From: Paratrimastix pyriformis
Taxonomy: Eukaryota > Preaxostyla > Paratrimastigidae
Direction of reading: 5' to 3'
Length of the DNA: 64,000 bases
Assembly: GCA_027972325.1 (NCBI GenBank)
Contig: JAPMOS010000009.1
Location: 170,001-234,000, forward strand
Shown here one piece after another: positions 14,110 to 61,800 of the stretch. The notes beneath the pieces were generated by a model that ran no database searches, had not been told where the DNA came from, and saw only the letters and a program-made list of their open reading frames with translations. Numbering within the stretch: the stretch's first letter is position 1; each line of letters begins with the position of its first letter. The position numbers and the translations under genes were made by a program.

Positions 14110-17100
14110 GAAATGACGAGCGCCCCTCCCCCTTGATGCTCCTCTGCTTGTCTTGTGCGCTCCAATGCTTCCTTCCTCTTCATCATCGTCATCATCATCA
14201 TTATTTCTGGCGGACCGCTTGCTGGGTGTGAGAAACCGGTTCTGATTGTTCGGGGAAGAGGGGGAGGGGGGGAGGGGAGGGGAGGGGAGGGGATGAGGAG
14301 GAAAGGAGGGAGAGGAAGGAGCGAGGGAAGGAGAAGAAGAAGATTCGTGGGAGGAAGGAAGGGAGGGCAGGACGGGAGCGAAAAGGGGGAAAAACCCCTT
14401 GAAAGCAGCAGAAGACGGAAATCATTCCGATTCGCGTGTATGTTTCCGACCGACCCGCGCCGCTGCTGCGGCCGATATGGGATGATCCGTACATCCTTCG
14501 GCCGCCGTTCCTGGTGCTGTCGATGCCGATGGCGGTGGGGGTTTTGGGGCGCCAGATGATGGGAGTGGCGGCTTTGGTGGTGTGGGTTTGGGGGGCTGGG
14601 TGGCGGTGGCGGTGTTGGTTGGTTTCTTCTTTGCGGAATAAAATCCGCCTTCCGCGGGCACTGTGAATCCAGGCCCGAAGAGGTCCTGAAGCAGACTGAG
14701 CCGCTTGGCAGATGCTGTGGTTGTTGTGGTTGTTGTGGTTGTGGTTGTTGATGATGATGTTGATGATGCTGATGATGTTGATGTTGTTGTTGTTGTTGTT
14801 GTTGTTGTTGTTGTTGTTGTTGTTGTTGTTGTTGTTGTTGTTGTTGCGGCATCTGTCTTTGAGGCGAGCGGGCTGAATGATGGGGACGCCGAAGCCGCCA
14901 GCTGCTGTCCGGGGGGGTTATTCCCCCGCGTCTCCTCCTCCACCTCCTCCGCCTCCCCCTCGGCTGCCCGTCTGGCCTTCTTCGTGGCCTTCTCGTCCTC
15001 CTTCGCTTCATCAACAACCTCCGCTATCTCACTACGGCCCAGGGCTGCGTCCTCCTGCCGGTTCAGCTCCACCAGCGCATCCAGAAACGAGAACTGCGGC
15101 CGGTTCAGCCTGCGAGGAAAAAAAAAAGTGAAGTGGTAAAAAACGCTAGGGCCGGGGATTGAACCCGGGTCTCTTGCGTGACAGGCAAGAATTCTGCCAC
15201 TATACTACCCCAGCTGATTCATGTGGGCGGCGGCAGGGCGGGGCGCGGAACTTGTCGAGACGGCTTGCCAACTCCCCGTAGACGGCCTGGACAAGGGGCT
15301 GATCCACCAGCCGGTAGCGGGACTCGGCGAAGACTGGGAATATGATATGAAGATGTTGGTGTTGCAAAAGAAGGCAGATCCGAGAATTGAACCGCCGACC
15401 TTTCTTCTTCTCGACTGTCATTGAGATGAAACCTGGAAACGAGAAGAACGAACGAAGGAAAGCAAAGGGAGAGACGTTGCCGTGTTGAGGAGTCCGGGAG
15501 AGTTGGGAACGGACGGGAACACTCGAGGCTCTTGAGGCAGTCGTCAACACACGATCCGATGCGGCAGGGCAGCCGCAACCGGGTGGCCAGGTCCCGGATC
15601 TAGAAGAACATGGACTGGGCATCAGGTGGGGCAGCTTCTTCGCTCCTCCGCGCACACAGCACAAAAAGCAAACGACAGCTGCCAACCACACTCATCGACT
15701 CCTTGGCGCAATGGCAGCGCAATCGACTCCAGATCGATAGGTTGGGGGTTCAAATCCCTCAGGGGTCACATCTTTTTTTTCAAATTTTCTCCCACAGACA
15801 TCGGATTCAGTTGGGGCTTGCTTGCCATCATCGGCCAGGCGGAGCATCACGGCCAGGACCTGCTTCTCGAGGGTATTCAGACCCTGCAAGGGACAACACA
15901 AACGAGAAACAACACAAACAGGAGAGTGGTGTGTGTTTGAGTGCGTGTGGGCGGGACGGGGGGCGTCACCATCCAGTCGTCATCACCATCCAGGCATCCT
16001 CATCATCCATCATCATCCATCATCATCCAACCATCCAATCGTCCAATCGTCCAATCACCCAATCATCATCATCACCCAGTCGTCATCATCAGGGCGGACC
16101 TCGAGTTCGGCCATCTTGCCGCCCCTGGAGCTCGAGTGTGTCGCCACCTCCTCGCGGACGTGGGCCGACGTGACCTGGGCGGACTCTTCCCCAGCAGCCC
16201 GGGCTGCCAGTTGCCTGGGGGGAGTCGAAAATCAAAATGTGTGTTGGTGTTGTGTCGGGCGGCAGGTATGGCATGCGTGTGTGTGTGCGCGTGGAAATGG
16301 GCTGATCGAAGGGACAAGGAGGGGACCCAAATGACTGCACAACGCACGAACTTGGGGCCTGTAAGAACCACAAAATTCTGGCGAGCAAAAATGAAACACA
16401 GACATGCGCACAGGCGAGACGCGCATTGCTGTTTCAGAAGGCGAGGCACAATTCGCTATTTCAGGAGGCGGATGCAGACCGGGTGACTTCGAGACCCTTC
16501 CTGATGTCGCCGTTCAGGGCCTGCGTCACGAACTTGGTCAGCATGCGGTGGGCACCCGGGGCGATGTCCAGCTTCAAGTCTGCAGTGCCGTGGGGGAATA
16601 TCCACACACATCCGACGATTCCGAGAGTCGATCAGCACAACAGTCGTGCGAGTGGCTCCCTCCCGGGTTCCACTCCCCCGCGGCCAGACCGGTGATCGTT
16701 TTTTTGATCAATTCGGCCGTTCGTTCCTCAGAGTAGGGATCAAAGTGCATCACCTCTGGCGTGGGATACATTCCTGTGAGGTCCAGGTCTTCATTGGACA
16801 CGCCCACCACAACGATGGCGGGGCCATCCATGTCCGGGGGGAATGTCCACCCTTCGGAAACATCACTCGGACCCAAGAGACTTTGGTGCTCGCGAATGGC
16901 TTTCTCGAGCCGTTGGACGGAGGATTGACAGAAGAAGTCGAGCTGTTCTGGGGCGAGGGCATCAACCTCATCGAGGAAGAGGACACTTCAAAGCGTGTCG
17001 AATGTCAAGGGTTGTTAACAGACATTTTTGGTGGTCCTCGATGCCTTTTGATCCGCTGGACAAGCTCTCGTTCGGTTTTGGCATGGAAGACATCCAAGAT

Positions 17101-58849: not shown

Positions 58850-61800
58850 TCACCTTCGTTCGTCCAGCCGGCCGCGGAGGGGCCCAGTGACCAGCCCCAT
58901 GAAGGTGCCTTCCGTCACCCGATTGCCGCTCAGGCACAGCTGTGGTGTTGGGGGAAGGGAAAATAAAAATAAAATTTGGGCCACTGCGAGAATCGAACTC
59001 GCGACCTCTTGCACCCTAAGCAAGAATCATGCCCCTAGACCAAGTGGCCGAATGATGGTGGTGTATAGGAGTCCGTGACAGTCGATTGATTTTGGTCTGA
59101 GAGAGGGCTTGGGTTCGGTCGCGCACTGCGACTCTTGAGGCAGCCACAGACGCGTTTGAAGGAGGGGAGTCGCTGCACGAGGGTGGCGACGGAGAGTGCG
59201 CCCTCGTCGCCGATGGCGTTGCCCTCCAGGTTGAGCTGGGCCACGGACAGGAGCGGCGGCAGGATGGTGAGTGGGAGGCGTCGAAGAGGTGCGGATGGAG
59301 GGGATGGTGCGAAATGGTGTGGGATGGTGTGGATGGTGTGGGGTGGCGCGGCGTGGGGTGGTGTGGGATGATGCGAAGGGGAGTGAGATGGTGTGGGGGT
59401 GTGATGCAGCATGATGTGGCCACCGGACACCATCCCACCATCCCCACCAACACACATCATCCCACCCCACACCACCCCACGCCCACCATCCCCACCAACA
59501 CACATCATCCCACACCATCCCACACCAACATACATCATCCCACATCATCCCACATCATCCCACACCAACCCACACCAACCCACACCGTCACACCATATTG
59601 CATCATCCCACAGATTGCATACACACCACTCCACACCACTCCATACCACTCCACACCACCCCACACCACTCCATACCACTCCACACCACTCCACACCACT
59701 CCACACCACTCCACACCAGATTGCATCATCCCACACCATCCCACACCATCCCACACCACCATCCCACACCATCCCACACCACCATCCCACCCATCCCACA
59801 CCTATTGCATCATACCACACCATCCCACACCATCGGTTGAGAGATTGGATGACATTGGATGAATGATTGGATGGATGAGGATGATTGGATGATGATGATT
59901 GGATGATGATGCCGATGCCGATGATGTGGGTGCTGTTGCTGCTCCGAGTCATGCCGATTCTGCTGATGATTATGTTATTGCTGCTGCTGCTGATGATGAC
60001 GATGACGATGATGATGATGATGATGATGATGATGATGATGATGATGATGATGATGATGATGATGATGATGGTCATAGGTGGCGATGTGTGCGGGAGGGGG
60101 GGAGGGGGAGGGGAGGGAGGAAGGGCGGACCACTTCGAGGGTGAGGGAGGGTGACATGAGGGCCTGCACCAGCACCGCCGCGGCCGAGTCCGAGAGCCCG
60201 TTGTTGGGCAGCGAGACCTGTTGATGGGTTGGGGGGGGTGTCGGCGATGGGATGAGAGGCCCCAATTATCCATCTTCCAGCCCTGGGAGGGTCTCCTTGT
60301 GCGCCAGGACGATGCGCGTGTGTCGACACGAGGGGCTGGGCGGACCTGGGACAGGTGGCTGTTCTGGAAAAGGGGCGCCAGGGCATCGATGGTGGGGCCC
60401 GGCAGCCGGCAGCCCTCAATGTGAACCTGCCCGGAGGGAAACACGACCACCAGCACAAGAAGGGTTTATGAAGCTGAGACTGACACAATGTGTGAATCTG
60501 CCCCAGAGGGAGACACGACCACCACAGGCAGCACAAGAAGGGTTTATGAAGCTGAGGCTGACAATGTGAATCTGCCCAGAGGGGACACGACCACCAGCAC
60601 AGAAACTGAAGATGAAGATAAATTGGTGGAGGTGGTGGTGGTGATGATGATGTTCGGATGATGGCGAATCGTGATGATTGGATGATGATTGGATGATGAT
60701 GATTGGATGATGATGATTGGATGATGATGATTGGATGATGATTGGATGATGATTGGATGATGATTGGATGATGATTGGATGATGATTGGATGATGATTGG
60801 ATGATGATTGGATGATGATTGGATGATGATTGGATGATGATTGGATGATGATTGGATGATGATTGGATGATGATTGGATGATGATGATGATGACTGGATG
60901 ATGACTGGATGATGGATATGACCTTGGAAATTGCGGGGTGGGTCCGCAGGGAGCGCACGAGGGCCTGGACATTGGCCTCGGTGAGGGTCTTATGTCGAAT
61001 ATCCACCTGCGGGGATGGAGTGACAGGGGGGTCATGACAGCGGGTGGATTTGAGGACGGGGGGGATGAAGCGGGGTGGAATGACGGGGAGTGGATGGAGT
61101 GGAGTGACGAAGGGGACAACGTGAATCATCATCATTCATCATCATTCATCACCATCATCATCCGATCATCATCACCATCATCATCCGATCATCATCATCA
61201 TCATCATCATCATCATCATCATCATCATCATCATCATCATCATCATCATCATCATCATCATCATCATCATCATCATCACCATCATCATCATCATCATCAT
61301 CCAATTCTCCAATCCTCCAATTATCAGCATCCATCACCACCCCATATGAAACGGACAACATCCGGTTCGGCAAATGCCTCCTTTGCAAAGGCCAAAGCAG
61401 CCTCCTTCTCCGGGGTCAGCCCGGGCCCCCTGAGCATCGGGGGCTGCTGGTGGCCCCGGGGTGATGACGCGGCCCCACGTGGGGGTGATAGCGACGGGGT
61501 GGGACTGGCCTCGCCGGCCGACCGGGGGGATAGCCACTGTGGCGGCGAGCGGACGTCACCACCACCACGCGCCGCCTGTCCGGGATGGCGCGCCGTGGCC
61601 GGCGCAGTGCGGCGGGGCGGGGCGGCGGCGGCCGGAGGCAGGGCGGTCGGAAGGGGCAGGAGTGGGATGGTGATATGTTCCGTGCTGCAGATGACGGTGC
61701 TTTCGGAGGGACTTGGCGCACCACCGCCACTCATCCCATCGGTAGGTAACGGGACAGCAAGCGGCACCAACGTCGTCGGGGTGGTCCCGACGGGTGGCGG

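Follow-up and report, generated by a model that had tools for sequence, protein, structure and literature searches.

The window analysed here is a stretch of 64,000 nucleotides (nt) from Paratrimastix pyriformis, a free-living protist of the Preaxostyla (contig JAPMOS010000009.1, positions 170,001 to 234,000; all positions below are those of the window). It is of interest for the transfer RNA (tRNA) genes that lie inside its protein-coding genes. tRNA genes were detected with ARAGORN, and the detection was repeated with cmscan. In this way, tRNA-Asp(GTC) was located at 15144..15214 on the minus strand, tRNA-Trp(CCA) at 15697..15769 on the plus strand and antisense to its host gene, tRNA-Val(AAC) at 38159..38232 on the plus strand, and tRNA-Pro(AGG) at 58978..59049 on the minus strand. 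The 3' half of a further tRNA-Pro, a relic at 43454..43486 on the plus strand, was recognized by eye through comparison with the intact tRNA-Pro. All four intact tRNA genes are situated within introns, of which three are well supported and the one around tRNA-Asp is unconfirmed.

Intron boundaries were derived from NCBI proteins where these were available. The protein of PAPYR_2490 (P0002) maps with six introns, and its join EELIGSK|DQDLAALR spans exactly 38068-38268 (plus strand, donor GTCTGT), an intron with tRNA-Val in sense orientation. The NOD3-like protein P0001 maps with seven introns, one of them exactly at 43420-43527 on the plus strand; it holds the broken tRNA-Pro, with the T-runs kept. 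For PAPYR_2484 (P0003), which we take by eye to be ORC/CDC6-like, the join APTESD|IRDLATRL places an intron by frame at about 15600-15799 (minus strand, donor GTCTGT), with the antisense tRNA-Trp inside and its 3' end 30 nt from the donor. The sense tRNA-Pro occupies an intron at 58940-59151 (minus strand, donor GTCTGT) of a leucine-rich repeat (LRR) gene, across which both frame and LRR motif continue (LPSFKR|LCLSGNRV; compared with P0001 by eye). An intron with the sense tRNA-Asp is predicted at 15110-15251 (minus strand, acceptor CGCAG), and here the reading frame continues by eye (LDK|LNRPQFSF). It is unconfirmed because P0003 ends inside tRNA-Asp and the donor GTTCCG is atypical; the gene probably continues past this intron, and the NCBI model PAPYR_2484 appears to be broken there. 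An earlier note on this DNA, which had placed all of these tRNAs in introns, is thus borne out exactly by NCBI proteins for tRNA-Val and the relic, by frame for tRNA-Trp and by eye for tRNA-Pro, and is left unconfirmed for tRNA-Asp.

The distance from the tRNA 3' end to the sense acceptor AG is 34 nt for tRNA-Asp, 36 nt for tRNA-Val and 38 nt for tRNA-Pro; the relic ends at 43486 and its acceptor at 43527, a spacing of 41 nt. These values agree with those given earlier. The 34 nt after tRNA-Asp (15110..15143, minus strand) comprise T-runs and the acceptor. The 36 nt after tRNA-Val (38233..38268, plus strand) form a T-rich tract from the trailer TC to the acceptor CAG, putatively an RNA polymerase III (Pol III) terminator and a polypyrimidine tract in one.

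The published genome comprises 56.6 Mb with 60.9% G+C and 10815 protein-coding loci, and its gene prediction used intron hints from RNA sequencing (PMC10703272). In the main text of that paper the term tRNA occurs four times, in connection with enzymes and never with tRNA genes (PMC10703272). The assembly searched here consists of 56.06 Mb in 495 contigs. A set of 164 distinct tRNAs, representing 148 loci across the genome plus the window, was compiled from 63 scored of 1695 candidates, from part of the B-box pattern matches (those listed first), and from every genome match to the 3' ends of tRNA-Val (n=29) and tRNA-Pro (n=34). The set is a sample and not a census. The tRNA genes of P. pyriformis probably number many hundreds, because a single pattern of B box plus T-run alone matches 343 forward-strand places genome-wide.

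Acceptors were assigned by a strict rule, namely the first YAG located 12-80 nt downstream of the tRNA and preceded by about 15 nt with at least 70% pyrimidine. Three of the 164 tRNAs had less than 90 nt of downstream sequence and were dropped. Of the remaining 161, 93 had such an acceptor on the sense strand and 22 on the opposite strand; the corresponding counts were 158 of 732 for runs of four T (T4 runs) at a distance from tRNAs and 499 of 3768 for random positions. Among all genome matches to the respective 3' ends, the rule identified an acceptor for 22 of 29 Val-AAC and 18 of 34 Pro-AGG copies. In the 93 strict matches the distance from tRNA to acceptor had a median of 34 nt, quartiles of 29 and 40 nt, and a peak at 30-40 nt; the commonest distance in T4-run controls was 10-20 nt. 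The sense-strand peak at about 30-45 nt before acceptors that had been predicted from the window is therefore present in the genome sample. The constant spacing proposed along with it is not, the distances forming a peak with a wide tail.

The result was sharpened by a coding filter, under which the sense coding score after the acceptor had to exceed the antisense score. Acceptor and coding together were found for 64 of 164 tRNAs in sense and 4 of 164 in antisense orientation, and for 39 of 720 T4 runs and 315 of 7364 random positions (sense tRNAs versus T4 controls, Fisher 2e-26). The codon model used for these counts was trained on sequence downstream of the same sampled tRNAs. A second, independent model was built from the annotated coding sequences of two window genes (802 codons) and applied with the four window tRNAs left out; it gave 61 of 160 sense, 4 of 160 antisense and 53 of 720 T4 controls. 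A Pfam scan of flanking open reading frames (ORFs) at E 0.01, with input taken from the top 75 ORFs listed per class (sense, 67 downstream and 70 upstream; antisense, 62 and 64), returned 29 families for 137 sense ORFs and 17 for 126 antisense ORFs, which weakly favours the sense bias. In a whole-genome control count with CGA in place of CAG after tRNA T-runs, 130 forward and 144 reverse matches were obtained; the parent pattern gave 343 forward and 1069 reverse matches, the reverse figure being inflated by overlapping ends. The sense-strand and acceptor-proximal bias of tRNA genes holds across the genome sample.

Within 200 nt upstream of the tRNAs, a donor GTC[CT]G[CT] was found at 48% of loci in sense and 15% in antisense direction, and the most sense-enriched hexamers in this range were GGTCTG (42 loci versus 6 antisense) and GGTCCG (36 versus 8). 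Among the annotated introns of the window (37544-43673), 10 of 13 start with GTCYG. Their donor consensus is G|GTCYG and not GTRAG. With the independent codon model, upstream sense coding was detected for 113 of 160 tRNAs. At the 60 loci where donor and acceptor were both supported, their phases agreed in 43 cases, with 20 expected (p 2e-9). A search for a branch-point motif yielded no clear candidate.

In the five isotypes tabulated, the first TTTT mostly begins 2-5 nt past the tRNA 3' end; one Val copy and one Arg copy have no T-run within 40 nt. T4 runs follow the tRNA at no more than 35 nt in 79 of 79 cases whose acceptor is at least 24 nt away and in 67 of 68 cases without an acceptor, and their presence after 146 of 147 tRNAs suggests that these runs are Pol III terminators. 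Between tRNA and acceptor, 39 of 44 stretches were free of AG. The density of AG was 0.47 per 100 nt in these stretches compared to 4.15 farther upstream in these introns, and 8 AG were counted where shuffled sequences gave 16.3. Eleven annotated introns that lack a tRNA contained 7 T4 runs in sense and 1 in antisense orientation, and all 7 sense runs were located 7-57 nt ahead of the intron end; the exons of two annotated genes (2982 letters) contained one sense T4 run.

Paralogous kinase genes allowed introns with and without a tRNA to be compared. In two members, L096 and L135, the kinase exons run on across the tRNA-bearing intron. A genome search with the exon that follows the tRNA-Val intron in L096 gave 21 matches, and the neighbourhoods of 20 were examined. 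The intron position DMA|GLNYLH was readable in 15 members. At this position L096 carries a sense tRNA-Val and L160 a sense tRNA-Leu, both with T4 runs; in the 13 other members no tRNA was found there, and the final 60 nt of their introns were free of T4 runs (a donor was located in 9 of these 13, and the acceptor taken for L153 was an earlier, duplicated one). The intron at K|VSDFG contains tRNA-Pro in L135 and no tRNA in L170 and L171. Of the latter two, L170 is the one with mapped boundaries and a check for T4 runs, and it has none. Eleven other members, and then three more, read straight through this site without an intron, and it was unreadable in L154, L158 and L159. Taken together, a T4 run was present in the last 60 nt of 3 of 3 tRNA-bearing and 0 of 14 tRNA-free introns checked. 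In these three kinase cases the tRNA did not create the intron, because relatives share the intron without a tRNA. The simplest account of the sequences would be that tRNAs entered pre-existing introns, twice at one position with different tRNAs; loss of the tRNA from all other paralogs is less simple. The earlier suggestion that a tRNA supplies the intron 3' end is accordingly contradicted as to these introns, which exist without it, and retained as to the T4 runs, which occurred only in the tRNA-bearing ones. The K|VSDFG intron of L135 begins with the 16 nt GTCTGGGCCACTTGCG, of which GGCCACTTG is also found at the tRNA-Pro 5' end, a likeness due to chance or to a partial copy.

The copies of a tRNA have in common the tRNA body, a short isotype-typical trailer (TC in 20 of 24 Val copies) and the T-run, and the 5' flank is hardly conserved. 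Except where segmental duplicates, neighbouring tRNAs or repeats are involved, the flanks of different copies mostly show no relationship; 75 nt of 5' flank are common to two Glu copies (at 88%). The shared sequence is bounded by the T-run on one side and roughly by the 5' end of the tRNA on the other, and it does not reach the splice sites. Target-site duplications showed no excess over permuted pairs at 159 loci, where old ones could have decayed. Among the Val and Pro copies, seven combine a perfect 3' part with an apparent 5' truncation and were considered as evidence of retroposition. This argument was withdrawn because three of them (L091, L099, L120) adjoin repeat elements that are inserted in the tRNA and split it; L095, L098, L105 and L127 are left as apparently truncated copies. 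Retroposition, conversion and DNA transposition are candidates for the way in which the copies spread.

To a large extent, the multicopy tRNA set of P. pyriformis has probably settled in pre-existing spliceosomal introns, in sense orientation and just before the acceptor. The arrangement is real and unusual across the genome sample, and a plausible mechanism can be put forward. On balance, we consider it probable that tRNA copies enter existing introns and are kept where the terminator T-run can double as the polypyrimidine tract before the first AG. Each intronic tRNA would be an ordinary Pol III gene, and its 3' T-run would be read again in the RNA polymerase II (Pol II) pre-mRNA as a polypyrimidine tract. 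Because a strong T-tract would favour the first AG after it and so commit splicing there, only sense copies without another AG ahead of the true acceptor would be tolerated, and those in antisense or at other places would tend to get lost. The T-tract could outlast the death of the tRNA, as in the tRNA-Pro relic. The depletion of AG and the sense T4 runs near intron ends fit such a rule. A more far-reaching version appears rather unlikely: one T-tract would serve as terminator and polypyrimidine tract for a large share of the tRNAs, Pol III termination and splicing would interact, and the birth and death of tRNAs would remodel intron 3' ends. In such a system, the presence of La or Pol III on the T-tract might tune splicing, or splicing might free the tRNA.

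Several observations weigh against retention by a shared T-tract. Of the sampled tRNAs, 68 of 161 miss the strict acceptor rule, and the T-rich tail is nearly equal in length where no acceptor was detected; it is therefore not clearly shaped by splicing. The contrast in T-runs between paralogs is partly trivial, because a working tRNA gene requires a terminator. The upstream part of the introns is also somewhat poor in AG (332 versus 398 in shuffled sequences), and the acceptors in the AG test were picked by coding score and not by RNA. The NCBI model PAPYR_2484 enters the predicted Asp intron and stops inside the tRNA. Both Pol III transcription and the role of the T-tract in splicing are inferred from sequence. 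Finally, T4-run controls reached an acceptor in 22% of cases compared to 58% for tRNAs; T-runs alone thus fall short of the preference, which calls for an additional factor, for instance insertion bias.

Insertion bias might even suffice, although we regard this as doubtful. The copying mechanism itself would direct tRNAs to sites ahead of T-runs in transcribed introns; one route could be the priming of a U-tailed tRNA transcript on the A-run that faces the polypyrimidine tract. Selection would add little. The composition of the copies, with body, trailer and T-run in common and little 5' flank, is in line with this, as are the mostly sense T4 runs near AG in the 11 annotated introns without tRNA. 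It is opposed by the target-site duplications not found at the 159 loci, by the splitting of three of the seven apparently truncated copies by a repeat element, and by T-runs in general, which are near acceptors far more rarely than tRNAs are. The 13 tRNA-free paralogous introns, lacking T4 in their last 60 nt, speak in the same direction, although their sequence may differ from that at the time of insertion. Introns could also be no more than the least harmful place for extra tRNA genes in a GC-rich genome, with the sense bias arising from avoided head-on collision of Pol II and Pol III and the proximity to the acceptor from T-runs that were present beforehand. The single sense T4 run in the exons of two annotated genes, against 7 near the acceptor in the 11 tRNA-free introns, would agree with such a safe harbour. 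It is nevertheless unlikely in view of the lower frequency of acceptor-like sites after control T4 runs and their commonest distance of 10-20 nt instead of 30-40 nt.

Still less probable is a maturation coupled to splicing, as for small nucleolar RNAs (snoRNAs), in which tRNAs would be released from the excised Pol II intron and would have to keep a set spacing from the acceptor or branch point. The strong sense bias and the peak at 30-40 nt, the one support for the coupled tRNA and mRNA maturation suggested in the earlier note, are the geometry that host-dependent intronic RNAs would require, but the T4 run within 35 nt of the tRNA regardless of an acceptor (146 of 147) is expected for Pol III terminators. 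Moreover, the acceptor distance has a wide tail, tRNA-Trp of the window is antisense, and a second tRNA lies in tandem upstream of several acceptor-linked tRNAs (e.g. L007, L026, L044). It is very improbable that a tRNA with its T-run turns exon sequence into an intron by providing a new 3' splice site. The tRNA-Pro-bearing K|VSDFG intron of L135 is indeed absent from most kinase paralogs seen, but L170 and L171 possess it without a tRNA, the DMA|GLNYLH position is common to 13 paralogs without one, and similarity between the flanks of copies does not extend to the splice sites. Such an introner-like origin is disfavoured in the three kinase cases seen.

Retention in existing introns also differs from arrangements known elsewhere. 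Introner elements are repeated elements that include both splice sites and create a new intron; the repeated unit of the P. pyriformis tRNA copies excludes the splice sites. Intron-encoded box C/D snoRNAs lie in sense with a preferred spacing to the 3' end of the intron and are processed from the intron, but they lack a Pol III terminator of their own. When antisense Alu copies are exonised, the polypyrimidine tract comes from a T-run belonging to a transposed Pol III element; Alu works in antisense and gives rise to new exons, whereas the tRNAs are in sense within existing introns. In Caenorhabditis elegans, too, a large share of nuclear tRNA genes lies within introns of protein genes (44-47%; 44% of 609), which is not above chance, and 56% of them are on the host strand, a near-random orientation with no acceptor-proximal peak described in the parts of that study consulted (PMC4999229). 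Human nimtRNAs are intronic tRNA-like sequences that stem from mitochondrial DNA insertions, are active in both orientations and can affect splicing; they resemble the present case in having a tRNA shape inside introns, and differ in that the consulted parts of the report mention no link with an acceptor or a Pol III terminator (PMC7722341). Nested tRNA genes are already known, and those of C. elegans lack a bias of this kind. No description of acceptor-linked tRNA genes, in general or for Preaxostyla, was found in searches of open-access papers, which, with the consulted passages of the genome paper, agrees with the earlier statement that no described system of this geometry was known. If the proposed explanation is true, two RNA polymerase systems use one short sequence jointly at very many places of one genome. 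The paralogs with and without a tRNA form a natural test bed for the evolution of intron 3' ends and the tolerance of nested Pol III genes, and annotators of this lineage should be aware that gene models can break at tRNA introns.

Eight candidates for U1 small nuclear RNA (L162-L169), all under the Rfam cut-off, start with AUACAGACC, which is complementary to GGTCTGT; canonical U1 has AUACUUACC at that place. Judged from these sequences, U1 and the 5' splice site have apparently co-evolved in P. pyriformis. In Streblomastix the donor has been reported to be yeast-like, typically GUAUGU (PMC1501061). A de novo intron caller was discarded as too noisy, since it made 23 and 27 calls in the window (threshold 8) versus 21 and 9 in reversed sequence and recovered only 1 of 13 annotated introns exactly.

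Repeat elements were found inside tRNA genes near the A box, completely in one case (L018:2414-3464) and with one junction each in L091, L120, L099 and L140. The L018 element is about 1 kb long, with long inverted repeats and the right end GGCTCTA; a second family ends with GGCCCTA. A 3-bp duplication (CCG) flanks the L018 element on both sides, and the other loci show one junction only. For comparison, Dada transposons produce duplications of 6-7 bp, and Dada-U6 and Dada-U1 are without terminal inverted repeats (PMC3706591). Neighbouring tRNAs up to 400 nt apart were observed at L007, L026, L032, L041, L044, L046, L058, L069, L082, L108 and L123, forming 19 tandem, 4 divergent and 3 convergent pairs. 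The tandem gaps, which separate different tRNAs, cluster at 73-81 nt (11 of 19).

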